64,000 bases of DNA from assembly GCA_937920275.1 (NCBI GenBank), contig CALGVD010000006.1, forward strand, positions 1 through 64,000. The letters are read 5' to 3'. The notes under the pieces were generated by a model. The model did not search any database, was not told the origin of the DNA, and worked only from the letters and a program-made list of their open reading frames with translations. Shown one piece after another: positions 4,058-49,590 of this stretch. The position numbers and the translations under genes were made by a program. The stretch is from an uncultured Pseudomonadota bacterium (GTDB lineage Bacteria > Pseudomonadota > Gammaproteobacteria > Steroidobacterales > Steroidobacteraceae). Each line of letters begins with the position of its first letter. The first letter of the stretch is position 1.

Positions 4058-4674
4058 CAGGCAGCTCCTTCGGCGTTGGCGTCCAGACCGATGACGAGCA
4101 TCGTGTCGGACTCGAACTTGTGGGGCGGCACCGCCAGATTCAGCGATGCGGGCGAACCGTTGAACACGCGACCGGCGAGATCGAAGCGCGAACCATGGCA
4201 GGGGCAGAAGAAGCCGCCCGGCCAATCCGCGCCGAGGGTGGGCTCACCCTGCGTGAAATACTGCTTCGGCAGGCATCCGAGGTGCGTGCAAGCGGCGTAG
4301 AGCACGAGGAACTCGGGCTTGATCGAACGGGCTTCGTTCTTCGCGTAGACGGGCTGCGCGGAGGCATCGGACTGCGGGTCTTTGAGGCTGGGCCCGACCT
4401 TCGCGAGACCAGCGACGGCCTCAGGCGTGCGGCGCACGACATACACCGGCTGCTTGCGCCAGCTCTGGGTGATCATCTGGCCGGGTTCGAGTTTCGAGAT
4501 GTCGATCTCGAGCGGCGCGCCGAGCGCGCGGGCGCGCTCCGAGGGACGCCACGAGGCGATGAAGGGCACCAAGGTGAAGGCGCCGCCCACTGCTGCGGTG
4601 GCTGCCGTCGCCGCCGTCAAAAATTTGCGTCGGCTGGTGTCGGCTTCGTCGGGCAGATTGTCCGGATCGCTCAT
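4057..4674 (-). CDS. petA: Rieske iron-sulfur subunit, bc1 complex
   Basis: The 2Fe-2S subunit of the bc1 complex. The two cluster-binding boxes are CTHLGC and CPCHGS. The N-terminus carries a Tat-type signal anchor (SRRKFLTAATAATAAVGGAF) that spans the membrane. I choose the ATG at 4674 (MSDPDNLPDEAD, 205 aa) because GGGGAGAG lies about 9 bases before it. An in-frame ATG at 4692 would add six residues and cannot be excluded. This is the first gene of petABC. A perfect TATAAT -10 element lies about 65 bases upstream, and the divergent htrA gene starts at 4819. Confidence 0.95.
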   Translation of the reverse strand: MSDPDNLPDEADTSRRKFLTAATAATAAVGGAFTLVPFIASWRPSERARALGAPLEIDISKLEPGQMITQSWRKQPVYVVRRTPEAVAGLAKVGPSLKDPQSDASAQPVYAKNEARSIKPEFLVLYAACTHLGCLPKQYFTQGEPTLGADWPGGFFCPCHGSRFDLAGRVFNGSPASLNLAVPPHKFESDTMLVIGLDANAEGAA

Positions 4675-21587: not shown

Positions 21588-22166
21588 TCAGCGTCGGCGA
21601 CCGGCCTTGGCGCGGGAAACGGGCTTTTTAGCCGGCTTCTTGGCGGGCTTCTTGGCCTTTTTCTTGGGCGCCTTCTTCTTCGGCGCCTTCTTCACCGGCT
21701 TCTCGGCTGGGTAAAGCATGGTGCCGCGGCACTTCGGGCTGCCACAGCGGCAGGCGAAGATCTCATCGACATCGTCCGGATCGTCCTTCTCGCGCCCGAT
21801 CTCGTAGTCATAGCCGAGTTCCTCGCCCTTCTCGATGAGACGGGTCGACTCGATGAAGACGCGGCGCTCCTGGATGATCGACTCGCAGTTGCCATCGCAG
21901 GAGTGGTTGATGAAACGCGCGCCGTTGCCACCGACGCCTGCATCGATCACCACATGTCGGTCGACGATGAAGAGGAATGTGTGGTTGTCGTTCGGGTCGT
22001 GGTCTACATATCGATCGTCTGCTTGCTTGTGCGTGATCCGGTCACCGAGATACTCGATGACCCGGGTGCCCTTCGGGATGCGGCGCGCAGCGAAGACGCC
22101 CTTGCCGTGTATGGGGGAATCGCGGACCTCGATCCAGCGGCTGGTGCGCATTTCGGGAATCGGCAC
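21588..22166 (-). CDS. SET-domain protein-lysine methyltransferase with histone-H1-like tail
   Basis: A 192-aa protein with a compact SET domain (about residues 8-135). Visible motifs are DSPIHGKGVFAARRIPKGTR (SAM-binding start), ARFINHSCDGNCES (the NHSC active-site pseudoknot) and GEELGYDYE (catalytic Tyr). A post-SET zinc motif FACRCGSPKCRGTM follows. The last ~40 residues are Lys/Ala/Pro repeats (KKAPKKKAPKKKAKKPAKK and then KPAKKPVSRAKAGRRR), like histone H1 or bacterial H1-like proteins. SET proteins transfer methyl groups from SAM to lysines. The substrate is unknown; the tail may bind DNA or be self-methylated (inference). It lies between thyA and folA on the same strand. Confidence 0.9.
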   Translation of the reverse strand: MPIPEMRTSRWIEVRDSPIHGKGVFAARRIPKGTRVIEYLGDRITHKQADDRYVDHDPNDNHTFLFIVDRHVVIDAGVGGNGARFINHSCDGNCESIIQERRVFIESTRLIEKGEELGYDYEIGREKDDPDDVDEIFACRCGSPKCRGTMLYPAEKPVKKAPKKKAPKKKAKKPAKKPAKKPVSRAKAGRRR

Positions 22167-38263: not shown

Positions 38264-38480
38264 CCCCTCTGTCCTCTTGACCTGAGAGATCGGGTCCACC
38301 GCGCCGGCGGACCGCTCCCCTTCGGTGGGTGGCGCCTCCCGATGGGGGCGACGACACCGCTCTCCAGAATTCGCCTGCGACCTGCCGTTCTTTTGCCTGA
38401 GCGTTTCCGGGCGGAAACTTGCGCCTTCGGCGTCTGCCACCCCCTTGAGGGCGGGGCAGATCTCTCCGGCGAGGTCGGAA
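38264..38480 (-). ncRNA. Tandem glycine riboswitch
   Basis: Two glycine-aptamer copies are readable on the minus strand. The first starts GGAGAGATCTG at 38467, has GACGCCGAAGGCGCAA in its core and CTCAGGCAAAAGAACGG at its end (about 38383). The second starts CTGGAGAGC near 38367, has CCACCGAAGGGGAGC in its core and ends TCTCAGGTCAAGAGGACAGA near 38266. The GGAGAG/CTCTCAGG pairs and CCGAAGG cores are the hallmarks of the glycine riboswitch, and the paired arrangement is the common one. It precedes gcvT, whose products consume glycine. Confidence 0.95.
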
Positions 38481-47302: not shown

Positions 47303-47495
47303 GCGTCACCTGCAGTGTTCGACAGTGGATCGGGTACTGCCTCTCGACCCTAAGTTGGAACGCCCAGGGGCATCAGGTCTTGCCGCCAGCACTGTGCAAG
47401 TCCGCCTCGAGCGGAAAGCCTTACCTGGCGCAGGCCGCCCCACTTGTTGCTCTGTGTCGAGAGCAACGGTCCACACCGGCACAGGCGGGTGACGT
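47303..47495 (+). ncRNA. ssrS: 6S RNA
   Basis: A non-coding RNA of about 193 bases in the canonical site between zapA and fau. The closing helix is GCGTCACC near 47303-47310 with GGTGACG at 47488-47494. The 5' part CAGTGTTCGACAGTGGATCG and the 3' landmark GCGGAAAGCCTTACCTGGCG resemble the conserved UGUUCG and AGAAGCCUUA parts of E. coli 6S RNA. 6S RNA mimics an open promoter and holds sigma-70 polymerase in stationary phase. TAGAGT at 47291-47296 may be its -10. The exact ends are estimates. Confidence 0.85.
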
Positions 47496-47561: not shown

Positions 47562-48218
47562 ATGGTGGAACTCGTGGCGCAAGCCTTGACGGCCAGCGAC
47601 CCGGCGACGCTGCGCAGCGAACTGCGGCGCGGACTACGGCGCAAAGCGCGCGCGGCACGCGCAGCGCTGCCGCCCGAAGAACGCCGCCGTGCCGAACAGG
47701 CCATCTCCCGCCACCTCATCGCTCAGCTTCGCGGCACCGGATCGCTCGCCCCACGCACGCGCATCGCCGGCTACCTCGCGGTGCGCAGCGAGATCGGCAT
47801 CGCGGATTTCCTGGCCTGCGCGATCGATGCGCAGTGCAGCGTCTTCCTGCCGCGCGTCACCGCCCCGCGTCTCGGTCGCATGACCTTCTCGCCTGCGGCC
47901 GCCACCAGACGCTGCGGCGCCTTCGGGATCCCGGAACCCGACAGCCGCGAACGGATCGACGCACGCTGGCTGCATATCGTGCTGCTGCCCTTGGTCGGCT
48001 TCGACGACGAGGGGAACCGCCTCGGGTCGGGAGCGGGGTTCTACGACCGTGCGCTCGCCTTCCGCGCCTGGCGCGACCACTGGCGCGGTCCGCAACTCAT
48101 CGGCGTGGCGCACTCCTGCCAACGGACGGCCGCCCTGCCGACGCTGCCCACCGATATCCCGCTCGATGCCGTGGTGACCGAAAAAGGCTTTTTTTCCCTA
48201 TCCGGAGCAACTCGATGA
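47562..48218 (+). CDS. fau: 5-formyltetrahydrofolate cyclo-ligase
   Basis: A 218-aa ATP-dependent enzyme that converts 5-formyl-THF to methenyl-THF. I use the ATG at 47562, with GGAG 5 bases before it; the frame is open from 47517 through the 6S tail. Family motifs are RGLRRKARAARAALPPEERR, GYLAVRSEIGIADFLACAID, VLLPLVGFDDEGNRLGSGAG with the following FYDRALAF, and IGVAHSCQRTAALPT. The gene is the usual downstream partner of 6S RNA (ygfA in E. coli). Its stop overlaps the EVE-domain gene. Confidence 0.95.
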   Translation: MVELVAQALTASDPATLRSELRRGLRRKARAARAALPPEERRRAEQAISRHLIAQLRGTGSLAPRTRIAGYLAVRSEIGIADFLACAIDAQCSVFLPRVTAPRLGRMTFSPAAATRRCGAFGIPEPDSRERIDARWLHIVLLPLVGFDDEGNRLGSGAGFYDRALAFRAWRDHWRGPQLIGVAHSCQRTAALPTLPTDIPLDAVVTEKGFFSLSGATR

Positions 48219-48679
48219 AGCATTGGCTGATGAAGAGCGAGCCCTCGGTGTTCGGCATCGACGATCTTGCGAAAGCGCCGCGGCGCACCAGCGGCTGGGA
48301 CGGCGTGCGCAACTATCAGGTGCGCAACATGCTGCGCGACGAGTTCGCGGTGGGCGATCTCGCGTTCTTCTACCACTCGAGTTGCCCGGAACCCGGCATC
48401 GCGGGCGTGATCAAGGTCGTGAAGGCGGGCTACCCCGATGCGACGGCGCTCGACCCGAAGCATCCGAACCACGATCCGACAGCGAGCCTCGATACGCCGC
48501 GTTGGTATCAAGTCGATGTACGCCTCGAACAGCGTTTTTCTCGTGTGATCACGCTCGATGAGCTGCGTGCGCACGAGCAGGACAAGCTGCATGGATTGCG
48601 CGTGCTGCAGCGGGGTAACCGGCTCTCCATCACGCCTGTCGATGCGGCGCATTGGCGCTTCGCCCTTTCGCTCCTCTGA
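48215..48679 (+). CDS. EVE-domain protein
   Basis: A 154-aa protein that is a single EVE (PUA-like) domain: MKHWLMKSEPSVFGIDDLAK, RRTSGWDGVRNYQVRNMLRD, VGDLAFFYHSSCPEPGIAGV and DTPRWYQVDVRLEQRFSR. EVE domains bind modified bases in nucleic acid, such as 5-methylcytosine derivatives, and are linked to RNA modification or to restriction of modified DNA. Here it is a stand-alone housekeeping version coupled to fau by ATGA. Its ligand is unknown. Confidence 0.93.
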   Translation: MKHWLMKSEPSVFGIDDLAKAPRRTSGWDGVRNYQVRNMLRDEFAVGDLAFFYHSSCPEPGIAGVIKVVKAGYPDATALDPKHPNHDPTASLDTPRWYQVDVRLEQRFSRVITLDELRAHEQDKLHGLRVLQRGNRLSITPVDAAHWRFALSLL

Positions 48680-48687
48680 CCAGTTGC

Positions 48688-48715
48688 TTGTTTTTTACAA
48701 TCGCGTGTATATACT
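48688..48715 (+). promoter_or_regulatory. Promoter of the 17-codon lysine/alanine peptide gene
   Basis: TTGTTT (48688-48693) and TATACT (48710-48715) with a 16-base, A/T-rich spacer form a good sigma-70-type promoter. An overlapping TTGCTT (48684-48689) with TATATA (48708-48713), 18 bases apart, is also possible. The region is markedly AT-rich compared with its surroundings. Confidence 0.65.
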
Positions 48716-48748
48716 CGGCCCGGGACTAACCACAACTGGAGACCTATC

Positions 48749-48802
48749 ATGGCTAAGGCCAAGAAGAAGGCTGCTAAGAAGAAAGCCGCCAAGAAGAAGT
48801 AA
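48749..48802 (+). CDS. 17-aa lysine/alanine-rich peptide
   Basis: The ATG at 48749 encodes [17 protein letters not shown] and ends in TAA. Ten of 17 residues are Lys and six are Ala. GGAG lies 7 bases before the ATG (a strong Shine-Dalgarno), a promoter lies 30-60 bases upstream, and a strong hairpin terminator follows at 48861. It therefore looks like a complete one-gene unit. I do not recognise a named family; the sequence resembles histone-H1-like tails and bacterial AlgP/Hc1-type KA repeats. It could bind nucleic acid or ribosomes. Codon use (AAG-rich) fits lysine repeats only and is not a transfer signal. Confidence 0.7.
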
Positions 48803-48860
48803 GATCCTCACGGATCTTCGGCGCACGTGATGAAAATCCCGTCGTCGCTTCTATAAATGG

Positions 48861-48890
48861 AGATGCCCGCGAAAGCGGGCATCTTCATTT
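48861..48890 (+). terminator. Intrinsic terminator after the K/A peptide gene
   Basis: AGATGCCCGC and GCGGGCATCT form a perfect 10-bp stem with a GAAA tetraloop, followed by TCATTT. It lies about 58 bases after the peptide stop and 40 bases before rpiA, so it should isolate the peptide unit from rpiA. Confidence 0.85.
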
Positions 48891-48930: not shown

Positions 48931-49590
48931 ATGTCCGATGCAGCACGGGGCAAGCAAGCGGCAGCCGAAGCCGCCCTCGAGTTCCTCACCGACGACACCA
49001 TCATCGGCGTCGGCACAGGATCGACCGTCAACTTCTTCATCGATGCGCTCGCCACCCGGCGCGACCGGGTGCGCGGTGCCGTCTCCTCTTCCGAAGTCTC
49101 CACGGCACGTCTCCGGGCGGCCGGCATCGAGGTGTTGGACCTCAACCAGACCGGCGATCTGGAACTCTATGTCGATGGCGCCGACGAGGCGGACCGCCAC
49201 GGGCGTCTCATCAAAGGCGGCGGCGGCGCGCTGACACGCGAGAAGATCGTCGCGGCAGCCTCTCGGCGCTTCGTCTGCATCGTCGATGACAGCAAGGTGG
49301 TCGATGTACTCGGCCGCTTCCCGCTGCCGGTTGAAGTGATCCCGATGGCCCGCTCCTATGTGGCGCGTCAACTGCTGAAGCTCGGCGGACAACCGGTGTT
49401 GCGCGAGGCATTCATCACCGACAACGGCAATCCCATCCTCGATGTGCACGGGCTGCGCATCCTCGACCCGCCTGCACTCGAGGCCGCCATCAACGGCATC
49501 GCCGGCGTCGTCACCGTCGGCCTGTTCGCCCAGCGCGCCGCAGATATCGTGCTGGTCGGCGACGCGGGTGGCGTGCGGCTCCTCAAATGA
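48931..49590 (+). CDS. rpiA: Ribose-5-phosphate isomerase A
   Basis: A 219-aa enzyme of the pentose phosphate pathway. The ATG at 48931 has GAGG 9 bases upstream. Signatures are [78 protein letters not shown] (with the catalytic Glu) and [19 protein letters not shown]. The length is the same as E. coli RpiA. The stop overlaps the GST gene. Together with rpe further on, it feeds ribose phosphate to purine synthesis. Confidence 0.96.

Follow-up and report, generated by a model that had tools for sequence, protein, structure and literature searches.

A 17-residue lysine/alanine protein gene between EVE and rpiA, probably a miniaturised orthologue of longer H1-like proteins

The DNA analysed here, a stretch of 64,000 nucleotides (the window), contains a very short gene between those for an EVE-domain protein and ribose-5-phosphate isomerase A (rpiA), and this gene is conserved family-wide at one fixed chromosomal spot. 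It is probably an orthologue, cut to near-pure KKKAA units, of an H1-like protein of 57-195 aa that is found in related Gammaproteobacteria at the same fau/EVE-rpiA position behind a common promoter, and its product probably acts as a polycation. Positions 48684-48890 read as a complete single-gene unit with a predicted product of 17 lysine/alanine-rich residues. The parts of this unit and its two neighbours are as follows.

48215-48679, plus strand: gene for an EVE-domain protein, the upstream anchor (it precedes the micro-ORF in all 110 loci with both flanks).
48684-48716, plus strand: promoter TTGCTTGTTTTTTACAATCGCGTGTATATACTC, with a -10-like TATACT at 48710-48715 and a conserved TTGCTTG block near -35 (read directly; alignments).
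48722-48748, plus strand: 5' leader, beginning at about the predicted transcription start, with a GGAG Shine-Dalgarno sequence at 48738-48741 (read directly; alignments).
48749-48802, plus strand: micro-ORF of 17 aa with 10 lysines and a TAA stop at 48800-48802 (read directly; conserved in relatives).
48803-48850, plus strand: hairpins of the 3' UTR between stop and terminator, variable and missing in some relatives (fold; relatives' loci).
48861-48884, plus strand: terminator-like hairpin AGATGCCCGC-GAAA-GCGGGCATCT, its stem prolonged outward in the fold (read directly; fold; compensatory changes).
48931-49590, plus strand: rpiA, the downstream anchor (it follows the micro-ORF in all 110 loci with both flanks).

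The -10-like hexamer sits in GTGTATATACTC, the -35 region TTGCTTGTTTTTT starts at 48684, and the transcription start is an unmapped prediction from the -10. An initial annotation of this DNA had called the promoter hexamers good; the -10-like one is present, but the -35 is weak by consensus, and a strict promoter scan of the window calls no promoter here. The ribosome-binding site that it described, seven bases before the ATG at 48749, and the 17 codons with their stop are as it had them. The 10-bp stem of its terminator hairpin is likewise perfect, although the U-tract that follows is poor. One K/A ORF of this type occurs in the window, against none in 100 first-order Markov copies, and thus exceeds chance expectation. 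Elsewhere in the window, a 6S RNA precedes fau (47304-47495, plus strand; Rfam RF00013, 63.9 bits), and there are tandem glycine riboswitch aptamers (38267-38479, minus strand).

The region, taken as 217 bases, is present in 19 of the 23 other genomes of the same genus and in one genome of another genus of the family; the same-genus search is free of promoter-selection bias. Three of the four genomes that lack it (G013, G016 and G017) yield no rpiA as well, and assembly gaps are therefore likely. In the fourth, G020 (locus L224), EVE runs straight into rpiA with no gene in the slot; this is a true absence and a natural loss, so the micro-gene is dispensable somewhere. A promoter/leader pattern, GTGTATATACTN{5,9}GGACTAAC, run on a public genome collection found 112 contigs, many titled Steroidobacteraceae or Gammaproteobacteria, and in nearly all of them a K/A micro-ORF follows; because this search used part of the promoter, the invariance of the searched promoter bases is partly by construction. 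Pattern contigs and same-genus loci together give 127 loci with an intact-looking K/A ORF, which are not all independent because some genomes were fetched twice (under a handle and under a contig name), and which hold 71 distinct ORF sequences. The relatives are mostly metagenome-assembled genomes. The ORFs are of 16-26 aa, with one lineage at 61 aa; locus L019 has a 15-aa version with an altered start context, and one 19-aa entry is truncated by a contig end.

Wherever both neighbours are present (110 of 110 loci), the micro-ORF has EVE before it and rpiA after it, on the same strand. The conservation of the ATG, the frame and the K/A pattern in relatives, which the initial annotation had proposed as the check on the gene, is thus borne out. 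Three contigs titled Klebsiella pneumoniae, Candidatus Planktophila lacus and Janthinobacterium lividum (L085, L036 and L069, respectively) carry the family's micro-ORF, promoter and neighbours, and are probably mislabelled metagenome bins. Searches of open-access papers for H1-like proteins and for small proteins linked to rpiA turned up no earlier description of the gene, which is weak evidence of novelty.

The micro-ORF is under protein-type selection. Among the 71 distinct nucleotide versions, the 16-aa class has a pS of 0.58 and a pN of 0.05 (pN/pS 0.083), and the 21-aa class a pS of 0.59 and a pN of 0.10 (pN/pS 0.167). One identical 16-aa protein is encoded by 17 nucleotide versions. The start, the stop and the lysine pattern are kept although synonymous sites are near saturation, and changes of length, from 15 to 61 aa, stay in frame.

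Beyond this family there is a longer lysine-rich gene with a common promoter, of which the micro-gene appears to be a shortened orthologue; the initial annotation overlooked this. Elsewhere in the order, the fau/EVE-rpiA gap of other families is occupied by lysine-rich H1-like proteins of 57-195 aa (those of L208, L219 and L212, for instance, have 160, 181 and 195 aa, respectively), and part of family f15 again has micro-forms of about 20-35 aa (L205, L206, L239-L241, L243, L244, L248 and L257). More distant members of the class (L178, L179, L184, L190 and L194) keep the fau/EVE side, with no rpiA in the 1.5 kb examined. Protein likeness among the slot genes beyond composition is mainly a common MA.KKK-like start, and the sequences are of low complexity, which defeats the usual protein homology scores; orthology therefore rests on slot and promoter.

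Two models were used for the promoter comparison. R1, a sequence-only model of promoter plus ORF, has matches in 163 of the 196 order genomes scanned and, for the class, in 112 of 369; because many of these matches are only compositional K/A, loci were inspected. Matches spanning K/A codons alone were rejected as compositional and not counted as evidence of orthology, for which slot or promoter was required. R2, a model of promoter and leader built without any coding base to avoid circularity, was applied to 57 loci. Its matches fall in the leader of the lysine-rich ORF in 33 of the 45 occupied slots, and the 12 empty ones have none; run on 185 whole class genomes it recovered three, and is too weak for distant members. 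Promoter homology with the long genes is thus demonstrated within the order; for the class at large, its basis is R1 together with visible similarity (CTGGAAATTT ... TATATACTC). With the shared slot, the R2 matches make a miniaturised orthologue of the H1-like gene the best reading of the 17-mer.

Within its own genome the promoter is unique, with up to three mismatches allowed, so that no regulon of like promoters is apparent. Its mean identity across loci is about 80%, compared to 28% for the 60 bases upstream, a difference that is partly biased because many loci were found via part of the motif. The leader consensus among relatives is CGGACTAACCCGA.., and GGACTAACC is nearly invariant, many loci having been selected by it. 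Other members of the class have K/A micro-ORFs of 19, 16 and 30 aa (L181:1520-1579, L192:1515-1565 and L197:1524-1616, respectively) whose leader differs and around which the DNA examined has no fau, EVE or rpiA match; these are possibly convergent.

The direction of the length change was followed on an RpiA tree, where loci of the micro, long and empty states fall into clusters (15 changes of state, compared with 51 after shuffling; L222 is labelled as empty, yet has the gene, partly masked by N). Micro forms occur in f1 and separately within f15, in the latter nested among long forms. The tree is of a single gene with modest support and a midpoint root, and f1 includes some long-form families, so shrinking of the H1-like gene at least twice is likely but unproven. 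The 61-aa form in the window's own genus shows that the gene is also able to re-expand. It is an even call whether two or more lineages independently reduced an H1-like protein to one of 16-26 residues, a functional oligolysine protein that stands alone and has kept its own ancient promoter. Such a protein would be among the smallest bacterial proteins conserved across a family and, in effect, a genetically encoded polyamine.

Known lysine-rich proteins offer several comparisons. Homologous micro-proteins of 20-61 aa match no model of Pfam or NCBIfam, and the 17-mer itself is below the 20-residue minimum of these scans. In Pfam, six of seven long orthologues have no family match; one long orthologue reaches E 8.7e-8 and 32.9 bits against HC2, the histone H1-like nucleoprotein family (PF07382), under the cut-off of 40. 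Two long orthologues match the Burkholderia-type H1-like protein (NF038053) at E 0.002 and 2e-4, far under its 80-bit cut-off; that protein is likewise lysine-rich and H1-like, but the micro-proteins tested do not match it. Like the window protein, Hc2 (HctB; PF07382, NF038052) is a stand-alone lysine/alanine-rich protein whose length varies by lysine-rich units, reported as 165-237 aa with variation by lysine-rich pentamers (PMC2848022). The window protein, however, has 17 aa and belongs to another lineage and neighbourhood, and as its long orthologues do not reach the curated cut-offs, membership of the Hc2 family (PF07382/NF038052) is not claimed. AlgP and PhaF of Pseudomonas share lysine/alanine-rich repeats, disorder and DNA-binding peptides: in AlgP, KPAA-repeat peptides rich in lysine and alanine bind DNA, and the domain acts in the spacing of polyphosphate granules (PMC9239181). 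These proteins are longer, and it is their C-terminal domain, with its KPAA repeats, that is lysine-rich, whereas the window protein has no proline and consists of the K/A run alone.

With 10 lysines in 17 residues, the product would be a small disordered polycation working by charge alone. It could neutralise and bridge polyanions, in the first place nucleoid DNA and possibly RNA or polyphosphate, much as an H1 tail or an encoded polyamine would. The initial annotation had suggested a basic micro-protein that might bind DNA, RNA or the ribosome, which is consistent with the H1-like orthologues of the slot. DNA bridging of the kind that a 150-mer achieves is beyond a 17-mer, and thus the function of the micro-protein may have changed. 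It may be that the protein acts on the ribosome or on polyphosphate and not on DNA; the same charge logic would apply, and AlgP associates with polyphosphate granules (PMC9239181), but no result here is specific to either target and such a role is unlikely. If the miniaturised H1-like orthologue is the correct reading, the locus offers a natural length series of lysine-rich nucleoid-type proteins, from 16 to about 195 residues behind one promoter, in which the amount of H1-like tail that is required becomes directly testable. Family-wide conserved genes of 16 codons can also sit between well-known genes, under the usual length limits of gene calling.

The transcript itself has marked structure, and a structured small or dual-function RNA could be the product, with the ORF incidental or secondary. 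A 169-nt stretch folds with a z of -5.97, the terminator-like hairpin has compensatory changes in its outer stem pairs among 43 distinct versions (its inner six pairs are part of the search pattern and hence uninformative), and the leader is near-invariant, though many loci were chosen by it. The hairpins between stop and terminator, however, are variable and missing in some relatives, and six loci (L046, L072, L074, L076, L089 and L105) have a 3' UTR of only about 60 nt with the terminator-like hairpin alone; this variability disfavours a structured regulatory RNA as well as a classical attenuator. The protein-type constraint on the ORF, its in-frame length changes, to as much as 61 aa within the genus, and the long ORFs behind the common promoter in other families also count against an RNA product, which we consider quite improbable.

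The layout also resembles that of amino-acid leader peptides, in which a short ORF rich in one residue is followed by a terminator-like hairpin and then a gene. A ribosome stalling on the lysine codons would switch the downstream hairpin and so attenuate rpiA, which follows in every locus with that flank, and the weak U-tract would allow read-through. The gene rpiA is not one of lysine or alanine biosynthesis, however, so there is no fitting downstream pathway. The single-sequence fold has no competitor to the terminator stem, comparison of the variable hairpins between loci brought out no conserved alternative one, and at 61 aa within the genus, or 57-195 aa in orthologous slots, the ORF is far too long for a leader peptide. 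Attenuation of rpiA is accordingly very unlikely. A decaying, functionless remnant of an H1-like gene, as the short length relative to the orthologues and the loss in G020 might suggest, is hardly credible given the low pN/pS at near-saturated synonymous divergence and the retention of promoter, start, stop and hairpin across the whole family.

Lysine-rich sequences occur elsewhere in these genomes. A protein search of the window's own genome with a K/A 50-mer gave no match and missed even the slot gene, so it is uninformative. A second stand-alone K/A micro-ORF of 30 aa with its own terminator-like hairpin is present at G000:C84, about 4450-4590 on the minus strand (L283, minus strand), and also in G008 and, made longer by an insert, in G004. 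In the window, positions 21600-21720 (minus strand) encode a lysine-rich C-terminal tail with tandem repeats of 12-15 bp, on an ORF for a putative SET-domain protein; similar tails are found in G015 and G005.
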